This document shows, one piece after another, positions 28,401 through 36,506 of a stretch of 64,000 nt of DNA. Made by a program: the position numbers and the translations under genes. The stretch is taken from positions 1,612,001 through 1,676,000 of the forward strand of contig NZ_CP124681.1 in NCBI RefSeq assembly GCF_029961765.1. The letters are read 5' to 3'. How positions within the stretch are numbered: position 1 is the stretch's first letter; each line of letters opens with the position of its first letter. Origin of the DNA: Nocardioides sp. QY071. Its GTDB lineage: Bacteria; Actinomycetota; Actinomycetes; Propionibacteriales; Nocardioidaceae. The notes under the pieces were generated by a model that did no database searches, was not told the origin of the DNA, and worked only from the letters and a program-made list of their open reading frames with translations.

Positions 28401-28407
28401 GTTGAGC

Positions 28408-28466
28408 GCACCCCCTACGAATTGGTCGTCATCTCGGCAGATCTGCGACCAATTCGTAGGGGGTGC
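28408..28466. repeat. Inverted repeat with perfect 21-bp arms
   Basis: 28408-28428 and 28446-28466 are exact reverse complements around 17 bases. Arms begin GCACCCCCTACGAATTGG. There is no T-run, so this may be a REP-like palindrome or a terminator-like stem between the TetR gene and the target-gene remnant. Confidence 0.85.
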
Positions 28467-28504
28467 GGGGCAGGGCCGGCGGCGAAGCCCGGCATGAGAG
28501 CGCG

Positions 28505-28777
28505 CTACTGAGCGACGGCGAGCAGTCGCTCGCACTCCTCGACCAGCCGCGCCCGCAACGGCGCACCCCGCTCGCTGAACCCGCGCTGCGCCTCGACGTA
28601 CGCCGCCTTTCCCTCGGCCGTCTCGATCCGCACCGGCTCGAAGCCCAGGTCCGCGAGGTCGTACGGCGCCGCGCGCATGTCCAGCACCCGGATGTCCCAG
28701 GCGAGCTCGAAGCAGTCGGCCACCAGGTCGGAGCACACCAACGGGGAGAGCCGGAAGGCGTGCTTGTAGAGGTCCAT
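28505..28777 (-). pseudogene. Displaced native 3' end of the integration target gene
   Basis: About 91 codons from MDLYKHAFRLSP to ECERLLAVAQ and a TAG at 28505-28507. They match the C-terminus of the intact gene at 35634-36506 (shared runs such as [31 protein letters not shown]), but without its first two thirds. Homologues usually continue MDLYK-x-A, like this fragment and unlike the current intact gene, so this is the original C-terminus cut off by the element. Confidence 0.85.
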
Positions 28778-28794
28778 CAACACTAGGATTGCAG
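28766..28794. other. Left attachment site (attL)
   Basis: The core GTAGAGGTCCAT (28766-28777) joins chromosomal sequence on the left to element sequence on the right; TTGCAG at 28789-28794 is the right arm of the reconstructed attP. Confidence 0.75.
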
Positions 28795-28816
28795 GCATCT
28801 AGTGGAAGGTGCCGCG

Positions 28817-30277
28817 GTGAAGGTCTCGCTCTATGTCCGACTCTCGGAGGACGCGCATGGCAACGAGCTCGGTGTCGAGCGCCAGATCAATGAGTGCCGA
28901 GAGTACGCCGAGACTCGTGGATGGTCGGTGGGCGAGGTCTTCATCGACAACGACCTCTCGGCGACCACTGGCGTCGAGCGGCCGGAGTTCGAGAGGTTGC
29001 TGGCGAGCCAGCCGGAGTCGATCCTGTGCTGGCACCTCGACCGCCTGCTTCGTGTCTCGAGCGATCTGGAACGTGTCATCGCGCTGAACGTCAACGTCTT
29101 CTCGAAGGAGGCTGGCTGGTTCGACCTCAGCACACCGGCTGGCCGTGCCGTCGCCAGAACGGTCACCGCTTGGAGCACCTACGAGGGTGAGCAGAAGGCG
29201 GCTCGACAGAAGGCCGCTCACCGGCAGCGTGTCGACGCTGGCGGAATGACCGCGACCGGCAGGCCGTGGTGGCCGACCAGGCCGCTCGGCTTCAACCTCG
29301 ATGGCACCCATCACGACGAGGAAGCACCGGCTCTTCGAGAGGTCTACGACCACATCCTCCGAGGGGGCACGCTCGCAGGATCGGTTCGCTACTTGGACGA
29401 ACTCGGCATCGTCACTCAGCGAAGTCTTGACCTCGACGCCAAGGCAGCAGCGGAGGAAGGTCGAGAGCCGGTCGGGAGGCCCTGGCGGGCTTCCAGTCTT
29501 CGCCCGGTACTCCTCAACGCTCGCAATGCCGGCATCTACGTCTACAACGGCGAGGAGATTGGTGAAGCGGCTTGGGAGCCGATCGTCACGGAGGAGGTGT
29601 TCCGGGCCGTCGTACGGATCGTGACCAATCCGGCCAGGAGGCTCAATGGCGAGGCCTCGGGTGGCTTCGGGCACCGGACCAACCTGCTGACCGGACTTGC
29701 GTCCTGCTCGCTCTGCGGCCACACCGTGCGTGCAGCGTGGCGGCGAAATGCTGCGGGGGAGCGGGCGTACAAGGTCTACCAGTGCGGCGGATGCAAGAAG
29801 GTAACGCTGCGAGCGGAATGGGCCGACTCAGTCGTCACCCGCGAAGTGATCGAACGCGTGGAGCAATGGCAGGACGAACTCCCCAAGCCGGACCAGGCAC
29901 CGATCGATGTAGCCAGCCTGCACACTCAGTTGAAGGCACTCGACGCGAGCAAGCAGGAACTCGCAGAGGACCGCGCTCTTGGGTTGATCGACCGCGAACA
30001 ACTCCGACTTGGTACCGCTCGTGCAAACGAGGAGATCGCCAAGATCACGGACCAACTGGCCGAGCACGGCACGGGTGACGATGGGCCACTGTTCTGGGAC
30101 CCGGACACCCTGTGGCAGTGGACGGGCGACGAGGCGGGGGAGGGGTACGACGTGGAGAGATTGACGCCGATCATCAAGCGCGTCTGCAGGTCGATCGTTC
30201 TCACCGGGCCCGGAAAGGGCCGAAAAGACTTGCTGTACGGCCAGCATCTGGTGATCGAGTTCCACGAACCGACCTAG
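28817..30277 (+). CDS. Large serine recombinase (site-specific integrase)
   Basis: About 486 residues. The N-terminal resolvase domain begins VSLYVRLSED with catalytic Ser10; conserved arginines follow in HLDRLLR. Next come the recombinase domain (RPWRASSLRPVLLNARNAGIYVY) and a zinc-ribbon (CSLCGHTV then CGGCKK) with a coiled-coil region after it. The GTG at 28817 has GGAAGG seven bases upstream; the earlier start at 28802 has none. It sits 40 bases inside the left attachment site, as integrases usually do. No excisionase-like recombination directionality factor is recognised. Confidence 0.95.
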   Translation: MKVSLYVRLSEDAHGNELGVERQINECREYAETRGWSVGEVFIDNDLSATTGVERPEFERLLASQPESILCWHLDRLLRVSSDLERVIALNVNVFSKEAGWFDLSTPAGRAVARTVTAWSTYEGEQKAARQKAAHRQRVDAGGMTATGRPWWPTRPLGFNLDGTHHDEEAPALREVYDHILRGGTLAGSVRYLDELGIVTQRSLDLDAKAAAEEGREPVGRPWRASSLRPVLLNARNAGIYVYNGEEIGEAAWEPIVTEEVFRAVVRIVTNPARRLNGEASGGFGHRTNLLTGLASCSLCGHTVRAAWRRNAAGERAYKVYQCGGCKKVTLRAEWADSVVTREVIERVEQWQDELPKPDQAPIDVASLHTQLKALDASKQELAEDRALGLIDREQLRLGTARANEEIAKITDQLAEHGTGDDGPLFWDPDTLWQWTGDEAGEGYDVERLTPIIKRVCRSIVLTGPGKGRKDLLYGQHLVIEFHEPT

Positions 30278-30424
30278 GGTCGGTAGATGCGAGTGTCACC
30301 ACGTTCGCACGCTTCACCGGACGTTGTGCGAGGTGCTCGGCAAGGATGACGGTGTGAGGGTTGATCTGTTCGACATCAGTTCTGGTGGGTATGGCGGAAT
30401 CCGACCGCGGACGGACTGGCGGTC

Positions 30425-31366
30425 GTGACGACGACGCTGCGGCTGGGTTTGGGCTACCTGCGGTCAGACATGCAGCCGGGAGTGGACGTCTCGCTGATCT
30501 GGGTTCACGACTTCACCTTGGAGCAGCACCAAGAGTTCGAACAGCACCTCAAGACGATCAAAGAAGCGTCGCGGCGCCCGATGCTGGAGATCGTGGAGGT
30601 CGCATCAGCGACCCTCGCGGCAGCCCTTGATCGGTTCGCAGATGACCGGAAATCCGCGGTCGCTGCCAAGCGGTCGGTCGAGCTTGATCAGGAAGCGAGG
30701 ATTGCCGCATTCGCAACCGTGAATGCCGCCTACGCGTTCCAGGAACATGCTAAGGCTACGGCCATCCGAGCGGGCGGAGAACGACTGTGGAACGAGGTAA
30801 ACGCCGTCTTCGCCAACGTGTATCACGAGAACGTCTGCTACTTGGTCGCATACAAACTGAGGCAACTCTTCGTTCACGACGCGATCGGGGCTGTCCGGGT
30901 GAATAGTCAATCCAAGCGCGAAGCGGACGGCGTCGTGGATTCTGTCGACTGCTATGTCGATCGCTCATACCTCAAAGCGAGGCTGACCGGGCGTGCTGGG
31001 CAGTGGGTGATCGATCGTGAGGCCGATCTGAGCGTCGCTGATCTGATGGGAGGGACGCTTGCGGGGATGGAGGAAGTGTTTCGCCGTACGCGCGCGATGC
31101 TCTTTCCTGAACTGACCGAGTCGCTGGCGTTCTTCGACCCGTGGCGACCCGAGCTGCTCAACGCGGAGTATGCGCTGTGTCTCACTCGCGTCACGCTCAC
31201 TGACAGCGGAGAGATCGGCCCAATGAAGTTCAAGCAGGTGCGTCCAGACGACCTGCTGAACGCCGGCATGGCGCCACTTACGGCACAGGAGTTGGCATCA
31301 TCCTCTGAGTTGGCGCTGAACCGTATCTGCAGGGCAGCAGACGGAGCTCTTGACGAGGAATCCTAG
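30425..31366 (+). CDS. Hypothetical protein of the integrated element
   Basis: About 313 residues, GTG start with no obvious RBS. It contains a long helical segment rich in Ala and charged residues (about 45-100) and then a mixed part with KLRQLFVHDAIGAVRVNS and LLNAEYALCLTRVTL. No catalytic or DNA-binding motif is recognised and no membrane segment is seen. It follows the recombinase by 147 bases in the same direction. Base use is AT-richer than in flanking chromosome. Function unknown. Confidence 0.65.
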   Translation: MTTTLRLGLGYLRSDMQPGVDVSLIWVHDFTLEQHQEFEQHLKTIKEASRRPMLEIVEVASATLAAALDRFADDRKSAVAAKRSVELDQEARIAAFATVNAAYAFQEHAKATAIRAGGERLWNEVNAVFANVYHENVCYLVAYKLRQLFVHDAIGAVRVNSQSKREADGVVDSVDCYVDRSYLKARLTGRAGQWVIDREADLSVADLMGGTLAGMEEVFRRTRAMLFPELTESLAFFDPWRPELLNAEYALCLTRVTLTDSGEIGPMKFKQVRPDDLLNAGMAPLTAQELASSSELALNRICRAADGALDEES

Positions 31367-31533
31367 ATCCGGCGGCTGACCGCCAGCAGATGCCGACGTA
31401 ACCGCCAAGACCAATGGGCGTGGAGAGATTCTGGCTACGTAGGTGATTCAGTTTGGTTGCGAATGGGCTCTGATCGTCCACCGTCGGGGCGAATGGCAAC
31501 GTCCAGTTGCCTACAGACGTGCCTTTGGACGGT

Positions 31534-31833
31534 CTAGCCGTCCCGACGCTCAGCCGCTCGTTGACGAGCCTGCAGGCGCGAAAGACTCCCGCTCATGCGG
31601 TCCTGCTCAGAGCCAGCCAGGCCGGCCTCATCGGCATCCCATCCGACGTACTCGGCCAGGAGACGACGCACCACGTCGCTTCGGGTCTCCCCGTTGGCTT
31701 CAGCTACCTCGGCAACGCGATCCCAGAGCGCGTCTGAGACGCGGATGCCTTTGACCTTCGTGGAGCCTCGGTCGGTGTTCCTCGGTGCTGCCATAGGTGC
31801 ATCTTCTCGCGTGGCGAGTGCCGAGCGCGTCAC
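31534..31833 (-). CDS. Ribbon-helix-helix-like DNA-binding protein
   Basis: About 99 residues. The middle, STKVKGIRVSDALWDRVAEV then TRSDVVRRLLAEYV, has the beta-strand plus two-helix pattern of the CopG/RHH fold. The GTG start (31831-31833) overlaps the stop of the gene upstream as GTGA; an internal ATG at MAAPRNTDRG is an alternative. It may control the element's minus-strand operon or the opposing genes. Confidence 0.7.
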   Translation of the reverse strand: MTRSALATREDAPMAAPRNTDRGSTKVKGIRVSDALWDRVAEVAEANGETRSDVVRRLLAEYVGWDADEAGLAGSEQDRMSGSLSRLQARQRAAERRDG

Positions 31834-32174
31834 GCCAGCCCTTTCATGAGGTCGAGCAAGGCGAGCTTGTACCTGAACTCGTCCTCATGGCTGATCGGCT
31901 CGTTGTCCTCGTGCGCCGGATAGAGACCGTGCGCCACACTTCCGTTAGGCAGGTAGCCGATCTCGACAGGAAGATCCCATTCGTCGGCGTAGAACGTCCA
32001 TCCGTCGGCGATTAGTCGCCGAGTGATGCTGTCCCAGTCGGCAGCGTGCAGACCATCACCACCACCGAGCGTGATGTCGGTGGACGGGTCAGGGGTGACC
32101 AACACTCCTGCACCGCGAAGCGCGTCGAGCACCGCCACGTGTGCTCCGCTCTCGATCCGCACCGGCTGAGTCAT
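31830..32174 (-). CDS. Hypothetical small protein of the integrated element
   Basis: About 114 residues from the ATG at 32172-32174, preceded by GAGGGA. Features: AVLDALRGAGVLVTPDPS, WDSITRRLIADGWTFYADEWDLPVEIGYLPNG. Acidic and aromatic-rich; no known domain. It is translationally coupled to the RHH gene (GTGA). A two-gene operon with a DNA-binding protein recalls regulatory or toxin-antitoxin pairs, but no toxin motif is visible. Confidence 0.6.
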   Translation of the reverse strand: MTQPVRIESGAHVAVLDALRGAGVLVTPDPSTDITLGGGDGLHAADWDSITRRLIADGWTFYADEWDLPVEIGYLPNGSVAHGLYPAHEDNEPISHEDEFRYKLALLDLMKGLA

Positions 32175-32280
32175 GTCTTCGTCCCTCTCATTCGCAATGA
32201 GAACAGCGTCTCTTGCCGTTCTTGTACCTGCCACGGGCTCGCACCGTGGCGCCTGCTTGTCAGGCTTCTCAGATTGGCCG

Positions 32281-32341
32281 CTGTGGTGGGTGTGACCGAT
32301 CCCAGGTCTCAATGGTCCCCGGCCTGTCACACCCACCACAG
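32281..32341. repeat. 15-bp inverted repeat between the two minus-strand element genes
   Basis: CTGTGGTGGGTGTGA (32281-32295) and its exact complement (32327-32341) surround 31 bases. It lies in the 195-base gap between genes and could be a terminator, an operator or a replication/packaging site. There is no T-run. Confidence 0.8.
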
Positions 32342-32369
32342 AGCGTCATACGGCGCCTACGGCGCCTGT

Positions 32370-32660
32370 TTAGGCAGTCAGGAGCTCACAGAGCGAGTCG
32401 AGCCAGACGAGCAGCGCGCCACGGTCGTCAGGGTGCTTGATCTCCCTGCGGATCTCGTCGGCGAGCTCGTCTGTGTCGAACGGTCGGCCGCGGCTGAGCG
32501 CCGTGATGTTCGAGCACGAACCGTCGTACCAGTGCCACCAACTCGCAATGGTGCGAGCGCTCTGGTCAGAGATCGGGTCTCCCGTCTCTGCCGAGCTCCA
32601 TACGTCGTCGCACGTTTCTTCGCTCGTGCCGAGCCTGTAGGTACTGACGTGCGCATACAT
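32370..32660 (-). CDS. Hypothetical small protein of the integrated element
   Basis: About 96 residues from the ATG at 32658-32660 (GAGAGG about nine bases upstream). Trp-rich centre (ASWWHWYDGSCS) and an acidic C-terminal half (DTDELADEIRREIKHPDD). No known motif. Adjacent small frames upstream on this strand are possible but unsupported. Confidence 0.5.
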   Translation of the reverse strand: MYAHVSTYRLGTSEETCDDVWSSAETGDPISDQSARTIASWWHWYDGSCSNITALSRGRPFDTDELADEIRREIKHPDDRGALLVWLDSLCELLTA

Positions 32661-32816
32661 GTCAGGCGACCTCTCGCTCAAAGTGATGCACGGCAGCGGC
32701 ACGGAGTCGGCCCGAGGGCGAGAGCGGATCAGGTCCAAACCGCTCAATCTTGAAGAGTCCGAGCGTGCTCGTCTTCGTCGTCACCATCACGAAGTCGGCG
32801 GTTGCGGTCGGCGTGA

Positions 32817-33101
32817 AGCTCCCGCTACGAGCAGATCGGCCTGTGCTCCGTTTGCGCTGCCCAGGCGGCCTACGGCCACCAACACGGCTTCGCGGTCGTC
32901 CGCCGGCCTTGCTTCGACTGCGCTTCGATCCTCGCCCGCCTGCCGAAGGAAGAGCATGGTTGCTGGCGCTCAATGTCGGTCGGCAGCCGAGCCGCCGTAG
33001 AGCGCGTGAAGGCAGGCCTGACAGTGAGCCGGACCGAGACTCCCGCCAACGGTCACACCTACCTCAGCGGCCCGTCTAGGGGCATTCTGGAGGCCGCATG
33101 A
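32817..33101 (+). CDS. Zinc-ribbon protein reading frame without a canonical start
   Basis: After an in-frame TGA at 32814 the frame reads SSRYEQIGLCSVCAAQAAY then, 14 residues later, CFDCASILARL. The paired CxxC motifs and phrase AAYGHQ-GF recall small zinc-ribbon proteins common on actinobacterial mobile elements. The stop overlaps the next gene as ATGA, the same coupling used by the next pair, which supports real translation. No ATG, GTG or TTG precedes the first CxxC; CTG at 32841, or a one-base frameshift in a longer gene, would explain it. Confidence 0.6.
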   Translation, partial: SSRYEQIGLCSVCAAQAAYGHQHGFAVVRRPCFDCASILARLPKEEHGCWRSMSVGSRAAVERVKAGLTVSRTETPANGHTYLSGPSRGILEAA

Positions 33102-33379
33102 CCGGCGCGACTCTCGTTGGCATGCTCGTCCACCACGGCATAGAGCCGGCCAAGGCCATACGCCTAGTGAATCTCATTGCAGAAATGGAATCGAGCACCG
33201 ACTCCCGGCTCGTTACCGACCATCTGCTGTCAACGGTCGATGCACTTGTTAAGAGCGGGGTGCCCCGGTACGACGTATTTGCCGCGCTTCTCTGTCATCC
33301 CAGCGCCCACGACACAGCACAACAGCGCTACCGCGCCATTGGCGCGAAGACCCTCAAAGAGATGGAGCGCACACCATGA
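33098..33379 (+). CDS. Hypothetical small helical protein of the integrated element
   Basis: 93 residues, ATG at 33098 with GGAGG four bases upstream. Mostly helical (VGMLVHHGIEPAKAIRLVNLIAEME); no known domain. ATGA overlaps join it to the zinc-ribbon frame upstream and the TerS-like gene downstream, so the three are one coupled unit. Confidence 0.75.
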   Translation: MTGATLVGMLVHHGIEPAKAIRLVNLIAEMESSTDSRLVTDHLLSTVDALVKSGVPRYDVFAALLCHPSAHDTAQQRYRAIGAKTLKEMERTP

Positions 33380-33807
33380 GTGGCCCCATGCCCAACCGCT
33401 CCGGAGAACTCACCCCAGCCGCCGAGCGTCAGCGCAAGTCGCGAGGCACCACCGCCGTTCGCGGTAAGTCGAACCCGGCCACGATCCCCGACCCGGACCC
33501 CGACTGGTGCCACGCGGCAAGGCTCATGTGGGACTCTGCCTGCGAGAGCGGAGGAGCCGCCTTCTACGAGTCCAGCGACTACGCGACCCTCTGGCTTCTC
33601 TGCGACCAGATCGACTACCTCTATCGGACCAACAAGGACGGCGAGGCCAAGCCACGCTCACCAGAGATGTTCAAGGCCGTTCTCACCGGCCTCGGCAACC
33701 TGCTCGTCTCCGAAGGAGACCGACGCAAACTCCACATTGAGCTCGAGAAGGCCCCCGACGACAACCCGGACTTCCTCAACGACCTGAACGAACTGCTCGA
33801 CAACTGA
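33376..33807 (+). CDS. Putative phage terminase small subunit (TerS-like)
   Basis: 143 residues. The layout matches small terminases of actinophages: basic N-terminal tail, PDPDPDW, a tryptophan-containing helix, CESGGAAFYESSDYATLWLL, then LLVSEGDRRKLHIELEK. TerS selects DNA for packaging. The assignment rests on recalled family resemblance, not a search. No large terminase or structural gene accompanies it. This combination is characteristic of phage-inducible islands that redirect a helper phage's packaging. It ends the coupled trio and is followed by a terminator. Confidence 0.7.
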   Translation: MSGPMPNRSGELTPAAERQRKSRGTTAVRGKSNPATIPDPDPDWCHAARLMWDSACESGGAAFYESSDYATLWLLCDQIDYLYRTNKDGEAKPRSPEMFKAVLTGLGNLLVSEGDRRKLHIELEKAPDDNPDFLNDLNELLDN

Positions 33808-33820
33808 GCAGGCGGAAGCC

Positions 33821-33868
33821 AGCCCCTCCCCGCTTCCAGCACCTTGGAAGTCGGTGAGGGGCTCTTTT
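33821..33868 (+). terminator. Terminator after the TerS-like gene
   Basis: AGCCCCTC (33821-33828) pairs with GAGGGGCT (33856-33863); GCTTCCA/TTGGAAG-like bases add an inner stem, and TTTT follows at 33865-33868. Confidence 0.75.
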
Positions 33869-33924
33869 CTGCTTTTGCAGGCATTCCCCGGTTTGCGTCG
33901 GCAGTTGGTCGTAGCCTCCGGAAC

Positions 33925-35490
33925 ATGGCTGAGGAGACCTGGCACGCAGCACGCCTGATCCCCACCTCAGGGATCTCGGGAGCAGAAGAGCAGGAGCGAC
34001 GAGCGACTTCCGCGTTCCTTGCTGTGCTCACAGCAGTGAAGGAGTTCGGCCGCGCCGTCCTCGGGCCGCTCGGAGCACCGGCAGGCAACGTGGAGACCTA
34101 CATCGAGGTCCCTTTCAAACTGGGCGAGAAGGACTGGCGACCTGATGGGCTCATCCGGGTATCACGCGGATCGAAGAGTTGGGTCGCGCTCGTAGAGGTC
34201 AAGACCGGCAAGAACTCGCTGGCGACTGAGCAGTTGGAGGCCTATCTCGACATTGCTCGGGAGCAGGGCTTCGACGCGGTCGTCACGATCTCCAACGAGA
34301 TCCCACCGAGCGCTGACCAACACCCGACCCACGTCGACAAGCGGAAGCTCCGCAAAATCGCCCTGTGCCACCTGTCGTGGGCCGACGTACTCAGCACAGC
34401 CGTGCTCCAGAAGGAGCACCGTGGAGTGTCCGACCCCGACCAGGCTTGGATTCTCGGCGAGCTGATCCGCTACCTGGAGCACCCGAAGTCGGGAGCGCTG
34501 GAGTTCGACGACATGGGATCCGATTGGGTCGGCGTACGCGAGGCCGTCAGCGCAGGCACTCTGCGCGCCACCGACAAGACGATCGCCGATGTGGTCGCCC
34601 GCTTCGACGCCCTTCTTCGTTACGCGTCACTGCACCTAGGCCGGCGACTCGGAACGGACGTGACCTTGCAGTTGAACCGCAAGGAGCGAGCGGAGCCAGC
34701 GCTCCGAGCGCAGGCACTACGAGCACTGCTCGTGGACACCGGCACGCTGAGCGGAAGCATCCGCATCCCCGACACTGTTGCCGACATCAAGATCACCGCC
34801 GACCTGCGGTCGAGCAAGGTCACCTGCGAGCTCGTCGTGGATGCTCCGAAGACTGGCCGCCCGACGACCCGGGTCAACTGGCTCGCACGGCAGTTGAAGG
34901 ATGCCCCCGGCTCGCTCAGGATCGAAGCCTCGGCGCTCAACCAGCGCGGGCCAGGCGCCGCTGAACTGCTCAGCGTCGTCAGAGAGGACCCGGCCCTGCT
35001 CGTGTCCGACCCCACTAGGGAGTTGCGTTCCTTCACGGTCGCGCAGAGCGTTTCGATGGGCACCAAGCGCGGCCGCGGCCGCGGGGCATTCATCGACTCC
35101 GTCATCGACGCTGTGGACAACTTCTACGAGACAGTCGTTCAGAACATCAAGGCATGGTCTGCCGCTCCTCCCAAGTTCCGCGAAGAGGTCGAGCCTCCCA
35201 GGGAGGAGCGCTCGGCCTTGTCTTCGACGGCGCTCTCCTCACAGGACGGCGCTGAGCCTGTCGAGCGACCCGCCCCGACCGTTGTTGAGGAACGGAAGGT
35301 CGGAGATGGCGACGCGTCCGAGCGTCCGGACGATGAGGCCGACTCGTTCTCCGACGATGCTGTCGACCCGGCTCCGCCCCCCGAAGTTGCCGACACCACC
35401 GAATCGAGCGTTGCAGTCGATCGGGAGGACGAGCCGACGCCCTTCGCTCCAGTCAGGATCTACTCGATGCCTGTCTCCGAAGACTCCTGA
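33925..35490 (+). CDS. PD-(D/E)XK nuclease-like protein with acidic disordered tail
   Basis: About 521 residues from the ATG at 33925. Residues 58-110 show a restriction-endonuclease-like core: Glu61, Asp74 in WRPDG, EVK at 91-93, then QLEAY at 103-107, which fits the order D-x(n)-ExK-Q. The middle (about 170-390) is unassigned, and residues beyond 420 are Pro/Glu/Asp-rich and probably disordered. The gene stands alone between terminators at the right end of the element, the usual place for accessory or defence cargo. Function (anti-phage, housekeeping for the element, or other) is unproven. Confidence 0.75.
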   Translation: MAEETWHAARLIPTSGISGAEEQERRATSAFLAVLTAVKEFGRAVLGPLGAPAGNVETYIEVPFKLGEKDWRPDGLIRVSRGSKSWVALVEVKTGKNSLATEQLEAYLDIAREQGFDAVVTISNEIPPSADQHPTHVDKRKLRKIALCHLSWADVLSTAVLQKEHRGVSDPDQAWILGELIRYLEHPKSGALEFDDMGSDWVGVREAVSAGTLRATDKTIADVVARFDALLRYASLHLGRRLGTDVTLQLNRKERAEPALRAQALRALLVDTGTLSGSIRIPDTVADIKITADLRSSKVTCELVVDAPKTGRPTTRVNWLARQLKDAPGSLRIEASALNQRGPGAAELLSVVREDPALLVSDPTRELRSFTVAQSVSMGTKRGRGRGAFIDSVIDAVDNFYETVVQNIKAWSAAPPKFREEVEPPREERSALSSTALSSQDGAEPVERPAPTVVEERKVGDGDASERPDDEADSFSDDAVDPAPPPEVADTTESSVAVDREDEPTPFAPVRIYSMPVSEDS

Positions 35491-35575
35491 CGGACCGATT
35501 CACCGTGAATCGCCTGTGGTGGGCGACGAGCCATGAACCGTCACAAGTCCCCGTGCTGTGGTGGCCGGGGACACG

Positions 35576-35611
35576 CGAACCCCTCCTGGAACGTATGCCG
35601 GGAGGGGTTCG
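35576..35611. terminator. Hairpin between the nuclease-like gene and the target gene
   Basis: CGAACCCCTCC (35576-35586) and its exact complement (35601-35611) enclose 14 bases. It lies between two convergent genes and may serve both; the T-content after it is weak. Confidence 0.7.
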
Positions 35612-35633
35612 TGCTTCGCGGTTGCGATCCGGC

Positions 35634-36506
35634 TCAGTTCCTGACGCTGAGCAGGCGCTCGCACTCTTCGATGAGCCGCTGACGGATGGGCGCGCCTCGC
35701 TCTGCGAACATGCGTTGAGCCTCGGCGTACTCCCGCTTACCCTCCGGAGTTTCAATCCGGATGGGTGACCATTCCTCGCCGCCGAGGTCCAGGCCGGACA
35801 GGTCATACGGTGCTGCCTGCATGTCCATGACCCTGATGTCCCAAGCGAGTTCGAAGGCGTCGGCAACGAGGTCGGACGAGATCATCGGAGACAACCTGAC
35901 TGCAACCTTGCCGTAGAGGTCCATGCCGGCGTGCAGACAGCCGGGCTGCTCGAAGTCGGGGCGGTCGTCGCGGCCCGGGACGAGCGTGTTCAGCGGGCGG
36001 GCCGGGGGAGTGAAGAAGCGGTAGGCGTCGAAGTGCGAGCACGCGATCCGGTGGCCCTCGACGACCTCGTCGGTGCCGGCGGGACCGAGGCGGAGCGGCC
36101 AGTCGGCGTGCCGGGTCTCGTCCTCGGTGAGGCGGTAGACCATGGCCCACTCGTGCAGGCCGAAGCAGCCGAAGTGCGGGGCGCGGCCGGCGGTGGCGGT
36201 GAGCAGCGCGTGAATCGAGGCGACGAGGGGCCGCTGCGCGATGACGTACGACGAAGCGACGCTCACGCCGCCCGCGACCGCGTCGTACCCCTTGAGTCCC
36301 TCCAGCCCGGACCCCGGCGGCGCGACCACCCCGAAGCCCGGGTGCCAGCGGCGCAGCTGGGCGGGCCGGTAGGAGTAGTAGGTGAAGAGGAAGTCGAAGA
36401 CCGGGTGCTTCACCGCCGCCCCGCGGCGGGCGAGGTGCGGGGCGACGTAGCGATCGATGCGGGCGGCGTGGTCCGCAGCCCGCCGACGCCATTCCTCCGC
36501 ATTCAC
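35634..36506 (-). CDS. Integration target gene with element-supplied 3' end; 3-methyladenine-DNA-glycosylase-annotated family
   Basis: About 290 residues. Homologues in actinobacteria are commonly labelled 3-methyladenine DNA glycosylase, though I see no proof of that activity. Conserved landmarks: [45 protein letters not shown]. The part before the attachment core (35913-35924) is native; everything after it comes from the element and reads GKVAVRLSP where the native remnant reads KHAFRLSP. The GTG at 36504-36506 fits a leaderless start after TACGCT; a TTG at 36515 is the alternative. Confidence 0.85.
35900..35924. other. Right attachment site (attR)
   Basis: Core GTAGAGGTCCAT at 35913-35924, with CTGCAA (35900-35905) as the left arm of the reconstructed attP. 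Confidence 0.75.

Follow-up and report, generated by a model that had tools for sequence, protein, structure and literature searches.

An in-frame replacement gene end accompanies a large-serine-recombinase element at one codon in Nocardioides

An integrated element of Nocardioides sp. QY071 that encodes a large serine recombinase (LSR) most probably entered a protein-coding gene at its Met-Asp-Leu-Tyr (MDLY) codons and replaced, in frame, the last ~95 codons of this ~290-codon gene with an end of its own (probability about 0.92). The window analyzed here is a 64,000-nucleotide stretch of contig NZ_CP124681.1, to which all positions refer unless another locus is named. We propose that the LSR would recombine the attachment site of the circular element with a single GA dinucleotide, part of the Asp codon in MDLY, and that the element site would lead, with the reading frame kept, into a diverged homolog of the gene end. 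Integration would join the host N-terminal part and the element C-terminal part into one open frame, with the native C-terminal part shifted 7 kb downstream as a start-less remnant, and excision would return the gene to its native form. Because the new coding sequence would include the element's inner recognition arm, this arm would be translated, giving GKVAV instead of KHAF.

Results and Discussion

Occupied and Empty Sites

Both open reading frames described in a sequence-only reading of this DNA were recovered: a full-length target frame that is cut at its MDLY codons and continued by a diverged, element-supplied end, and a displaced remnant of the native end on the minus strand at 28505-28777, 7.1 kb from the end of the target gene and on the same strand (Table 1). 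The remnant repeats the last 90 codons; it had been given as 91, and counting from MDLY yields 90 codons and a stop. Identity between the in-frame and displaced ends is 74% at the nucleotide level (272 nt aligned) and likewise 74% at the protein level (90 aa aligned). A 97-aa open reading frame at the displaced end has its start codon in element DNA. The inserted element itself is real, although the span first quoted for it (28505-36506) was too long.

The empty site was found in G132, a genome of the same species. When the window flanks were joined by script at the crossover, they matched G132 end to end over 1854 nt at 99.46% identity (9 mismatches, 1 gap), which is exactly the join that had been predicted; BLAST returned the host N-terminal part followed by the displaced side at 99.5%. 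G132 carries one uninterrupted gene with the native end alone, not both ends in place without an element, and this end is identical to the displaced copy of the window in 90 of 90 amino acids. Since the single native end of G132 equals the displaced copy, the window represents the occupied state, and its in-frame end came with the element.

The target gene was present in 210 of 215 Nocardioides genomes. Its protein matched no Pfam, NCBIfam or PDB family of note, and the name 3-methyladenine DNA glycosylase was rejected as merely the label on one annotated plasmid homolog. Between the displaced end and the upstream regulator gene, the window also contains a 22-nt inverted repeat, free of mismatches, around a 17-nt loop (28407-28467).

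Table 1. Positions of the target gene, the integrated element and the attachment sites in the window.
Feature	Position	Strand	Remarks
Target ORF	35634-36506	minus	open frame, 290 codons
Host-derived N-terminal part of target gene	35922-36506	minus	99% aa identity to N-terminal part of G132; GC 74%
Element-borne C-terminal part	35634-35919	minus	in frame with host part, own stop; GC 62%
Displaced native C-terminal part	28505-28772	minus	start-less; protein equals the gene end of G132
Integrated element	28773-35921		crossover to crossover, 7147 bp; G132 empty site and both junctions read
LSR, 491 aa	28802-30277	plus	Pfam Resolvase and Recombinase, PHROGs integrase; exact start codon unsure
Element ORF, 313 aa	30425-31366	plus	no Pfam, NCBIfam, PHROGs or PADLOC match
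Ribbon-helix-helix (CopG/Arc-like) regulator	31534-31797	minus	Pfam RHH_1; PHROGs Arc-like repressor
Phage terminase small-subunit-like protein	33376-33807	plus	Pfam Terminase_7, 1.7e-25
521-aa element protein	33925-35490	plus	no Pfam, NCBIfam, PHROGs or PADLOC match; PD-(D/E)XK-like motif by eye only
Junction core attR	35913-35924	minus	ATGGACCTCTAC on gene strand; putative crossover dinucleotide GA at 35920-35921
Junction core attL	28766-28777	minus	putative crossover dinucleotide GA at 28773-28774
Putative inner attP arm	35898-35907		GACTGCAACC (plus strand); coding, read V-A-V; dyad about GA
Putative outer attP arm	28787-28796		GATTGCAGGC (plus strand); dyad about GA

The Recombinase and Its Association With the Site

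The serine recombinase named in the sequence-only reading lies between the two gene ends and adjoins the displaced copy. Its Pfam Resolvase and Recombinase domains scored over the cut-off and a zinc ribbon under it, and residues R13, S15, D80, R81, L82 and R84 were invariant across four relatives, the residues listed for Bxb1 (PMC12884075) serving as the comparison set. With both domains and the conserved catalytic residues, the protein qualifies as a large serine recombinase and is presumably active. Assignment as a Ccr recombinase was rejected (CcrB model, 47 bits vs. a cut-off of 900).

All five LSRs that are at least 49% identical to the window LSR, itself included, adjoin a displaced end of the target gene. 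Among the 215 genomes, clearly related LSRs occurred only in G077 (67%), G027 (61%) and G007 (54%), the next being at most 42% identical, and each of the three sits beside a displaced end; so does the fifth, from N. agariphilus (L128, 74%). At 32 loci with more distant recombinases (31-43%; 22 viral and 10 genome contigs), searched for the target gene only, no match to it was found (0/32). A genome-collection scan with a single recombinase sequence gave no match and one with an alignment of four recombinases gave 13 loci. The replacement end was found in none of 50,697 phage records, a point against the proposed mechanism. The clade of the window LSR is tightly associated with this site.

For the remaining element genes, the Terminase_7 protein is labeled differently, as a minor tail protein, by PHROGs. 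In a comparison with phage satellites (PICI-like), Terminase_7 was found in the window element and in G027, and no terminase was among 10 tested genes of G077. Direct and inverted copies of a CTGTGGTGGG(Y)G motif occur within the element at 32271-32341, 33050-33077 and 35514-35539, including a perfect 16-nt inverted pair (32281/32326) and a 28-nt pair of 86% identity (32271/33050); these are possibly replication or packaging signals.

Attachment Site and Crossover

The two junctions are exactly identical over 12 bp only, which on the plus strand read GTAGAGGTCCAT. Read along the gene, the flanks of ATG-GA-CCTCTAC make up an imperfect dyad. With up to 3 bp of asymmetry permitted, the best 12-nt dyad had its exact center at GA in each of the four recombinase-bearing elements for which the two ends were available. 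Support from 2000 shuffles was good for G077 (8/2000), G027 (6/2000) and G007 (0/2000) and weak for the window element (79/2000). In three units of the small inserts described below, the best dyad was 2 bp off-center and its support weak (118 and 76 of 2000 shuffles) or absent (588 of 2000). The crossover would fall on GA, the putative two-base overlap on which the paired arms are centered in 4/4.

The putative arms fall into two families, and the inner arm is coding in both: GGC AAG GTT GCA GTC AGG, read G-K-V-A-V-R, in the first, and AAG ACA TCA TAC AGG, read K-T-S-Y-R, in the second. With the putative attP arms centered on one GA, the inner arm of the window element would be translated as GKVAV. 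Next to the displaced copy, G057 retains an outer arm identical to that of G077.

A search of 126 further genomes of the family, all from other genera, found the gene in 83. In one of them (G340, another genus; L166/L167), this very codon has been split by an unrelated serine recombinase, which is 25% identical to the window LSR along part of the protein. The native sides there overlap in GA only, which independently supports a GA crossover as read from these junctions. This insertion brought no replacement end, and the frame stops at MDIHTS-stop. The G340 element also encodes an FtsK-like translocase, recognized by eye.

Recurrence at the Same Codon and Range of Occupants

The window had been singled out as a neat case, but it does not stand alone: 12 of the 210 gene-bearing genomes, its own included, have an occupied site, and G232 adds one in another genus. 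The occupied genomes, recognized by a displaced C-terminal piece that lies downstream in the orientation of the gene, were G000 (the window genome), G007, G027, G042, G057, G077, G083, G088, G120, G128, G190 and G207. Besides the window genome, 41 genomes were listed with more than one gene match; 11 had a displaced end, and the other 30, most of them with an alignment that splits at about residues 60-90 and some with frame breaks, another complete copy or the end of a contig, were not counted. G305 was set aside, its second partial copy starting near residue 118; at this locus (L169) the copy lies ~3.8 kb from the first and represents an event distinct from the MDLY insertions.

The distance from in-frame to displaced end covers a wide range. 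It is ~0.6 kb in G088, G083 and each of two units of G207; 2.5-4.8 kb in G120, G057, G190, G128 and G042; 7.1 kb in the window; ~13.5 kb in G077 and G027 (islands range from 7 to 13 kb); and 48 kb in G007. The G007 insert is a prophage, with genes for the large terminase subunit, portal, head protease, major head protein and tape measure. The islands of G027 and G077 bear defense genes: beside its Terminase_7 protein, the former encodes a RecD-like helicase and a type III restriction-modification pair, and the latter PIN, IrrE-like (RmrA models) and MazG-like proteins. Besides a third protein, the 3-kb insert of G190 (L043) encodes what look by eye like a C5 DNA methyltransferase and a Vsr-like nuclease, and reads as compact restriction-modification cargo. 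Within the G042 insert, between both ends, a fragment matches residues 1-36 of the target gene (L036, 3154-3252). In G232, of a third genus (L168), a replacement end (MDLYRTSSRL) is in frame, with the displaced end ~0.6 kb downstream and no recombinase match in the gap; GC is 59% in the in-frame end, 74% in the N-terminal part and 67% in the displaced end.

The inserts of 0.6-4.8 kb are without the window-type LSR, and those of G088, G083 and G207 had no recombinase match inside. In G088 and in unit 1 of G207, a small membrane-like ORF (L041 of G088, 2136-2393; L032 of G207, 2691-2954) is the sole gene that we saw separating the displaced copy from the element-type end. The insert of G083 has a different small ORF. 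G207 carries two inserts in tandem, leaving three C-terminal ends in a row, the last of them native and frame-broken. We give an even chance to the reading that these 0.6-kb inserts descend from full elements whose recombinase was deleted, and are not mobile cassettes. Deletion is common in integrated elements, a free form of the 0.6-kb insert was not seen, and the frame-broken native copy of G207 implies that its events are old; yet G088 and G207, distant by their N-terminal parts, share the small ORF in intact form (55% identity over 83 aa) and in the same position and no other of the 215 genomes has it, and the tandem arrangement in G207 likewise argues for cassettes.

Origin and Selection of the In-Frame Ends

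Native junctions nearly all read MDLYKHAF or MDLYKHAY. Non-native junctions read MDLYGKV[AG] in G000, G077, G088, G207 and G076, and MDLYK[AT]SYR in G007 and G027; genus-wide pattern scans gave no further case of either in the target gene (matches in G033 and G152 lay away from it and were not counted). A displaced copy was present in 6 of the 7 genomes with a non-native junction vs. 6 of the 203 others (Fisher p = 6e-8, relatedness ignored). In these six genomes the in-frame end has a GC content of 59-63% vs. 71-77% in the N-terminal part, a drop larger than in any of 50 other genes compared. The seventh, G076, shares the GKV residues, has an end of native GC and no displaced copy within 1.5 kb downstream; its GKV reflects either convergence or a very old event.

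In trees of 56 of the 210 gene-bearing genomes, picked as best-scoring or occupied, one group (100/95 support) united both element-type ends of G207 with those of G000 and G077, the host N-terminal parts being scattered. The eight element-type ends did not form one clade (at least 4 changes, in a poorly resolved tree), which speaks against a single origin. Pairwise dN/dS among the element-borne ends was 0.15-0.26 by a simple method, with dS up to 1.4 in places. At these values the element-borne ends appear to be maintained as protein, under purifying selection.

Six occupied genomes (G042, G057, G083, G120, G128 and G190) have an in-frame end with a native-like start. In G057 this end differs from the genome's own displaced copy at only two positions over ~205 nt; identity then drops sharply to ~60%, and the tail is similar to that of the window element. 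In G128, the two ends are 88-90% identical over the first 90 nt and ~65-80% beyond, with GC falling from 0.68 to 0.57. G083 and G042 likewise show near-identity to the displaced copy and a drop at the tail, while decay of the displaced copies leaves G190 and G120 uninformative. The simplest reading is that the in-frame end was converted near the junction by the displaced native copy. Such gene conversion would bring back host residues, erase the inner arm and heal the protein. It is rather unlikely that the mosaic ends of G057, G083, G042 and G128 instead arrived ready-made on an element from a close relative: capture from a same-species relative would look alike, and a report on dnaJ2 phages raises a similar idea (PMC6109161), but conversion by a copy a few kb away explains more simply the two mismatches by the junction and the element-type tail in G057.

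Very unlikely is a reading as regulated gene integrity, in which the integrated element breaks the gene until it excises, as in SP-beta or skin, the in-frame end being a decayed, functionless leftover. The G340 element does disrupt the gene at this codon through its unrelated recombinase, but at every occupied site within the genus, that of the window included, the frame runs open as far as the homologous stop, the element-borne ends appear to be under purifying selection, and some displaced ends are themselves frame-broken (G128, G207). The preservation of host gene function claimed in the sequence-only reading is putative, resting on the open frame and the dN/dS of the element-borne ends. 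Least probable of all is a tandem duplication of the gene end with an element inserted afterwards between the copies and no replacement on its attachment site, which would place two homologous ends around the element and fit the 90-95% identity of the copies in G083, G057 and G042, but not the single end of the same-species empty site, an in-frame end that is 26% diverged, low in GC and unlike the host, its clustering with the ends of other elements rather than the host's own, or the abrupt drop of identity toward the tail in G057, G083 and G042.

Comparison With Known Systems

Phage 21 integrates in E. coli icd like e14, with a replacement 3′ end. In published accounts, attP often supplies a replacement that lets the target gene survive, icd and tyrosine integrases being the model, and e14 in icd brings a replacement 3′ end with the native end at the other junction, as here (PMC6379469, PMC10111431). 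The window element shares with these systems the insertion at one site inside a coding gene, empty in relatives, and the missing gene end supplied in frame with the native end moved to the other junction. It differs in that icd systems use a tyrosine integrase and a replacement much closer to the native end, with a long block of attP/attB identity, whereas an LSR acts here, presumably, on 12 bp of identity followed by 74%. The dnaJ2 prophages of Bifidobacterium are alike in their actinobacterial host, the rebuilding of a protein gene and possible gene conversion, but have a tyrosine integrase, a 35-bp common core at the 3′ end of the gene and no swap of a third of the protein (PMC6109161). SP-beta and the skin element of C. 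difficile, both serine-recombinase elements, lie within coding genes that become whole again when the element excises. They split the gene for as long as they are integrated; the window element leaves a frame of 290 codons open, in contrast to the insertion in G340.

SCC elements, mobilized by Ccr serine recombinases, insert at the end of rlmH and leave the gene intact, the last codons alone being involved. They are the nearest serine-recombinase parallel known to us, with a few codons there and a long diverged end here. The nearest named recombinases are the R4 and phiCAM-type serine integrases of Streptomyces phages (~40% identity), and none of 22 related viral contigs on that side had any part of the target gene. 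In the literature as we covered it, incompletely and with few subscription papers, we found no LSR element with a long diverged replacement gene end, and neither the target gene as an integration site nor attachment sites of Nocardioides. Restoration of a gene by attP is thus known; what would set the present case apart, as read from these sequences, is the serine recombinase, the deeply diverged replacement, a putatively coding half-site, a range of occupants that includes very small inserts, and mosaic ends.

Implications

These findings indicate that gene restoration with a deeply diverged replacement is not limited to tyrosine integrases. Tentatively, and at somewhat less than even odds, the codon may be a shared dock for gene-end cassettes with half of the recombination site translated, at which phage, islands and recombinase-less single-gene cassettes (mobilized in trans and stacking in tandem) bring an interchangeable C-terminus, later conversion healing the protein, erasing the half-site and locking the cassette in place. 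If the inner arm is translated, past insertions would leave an amino-acid footprint traceable in ordinary protein alignments, and the hybrid and mosaic ends would form a natural record of integration, stacking and domestication. The recombinase/site pairs may also serve as non-disruptive integration tools in actinobacteria.
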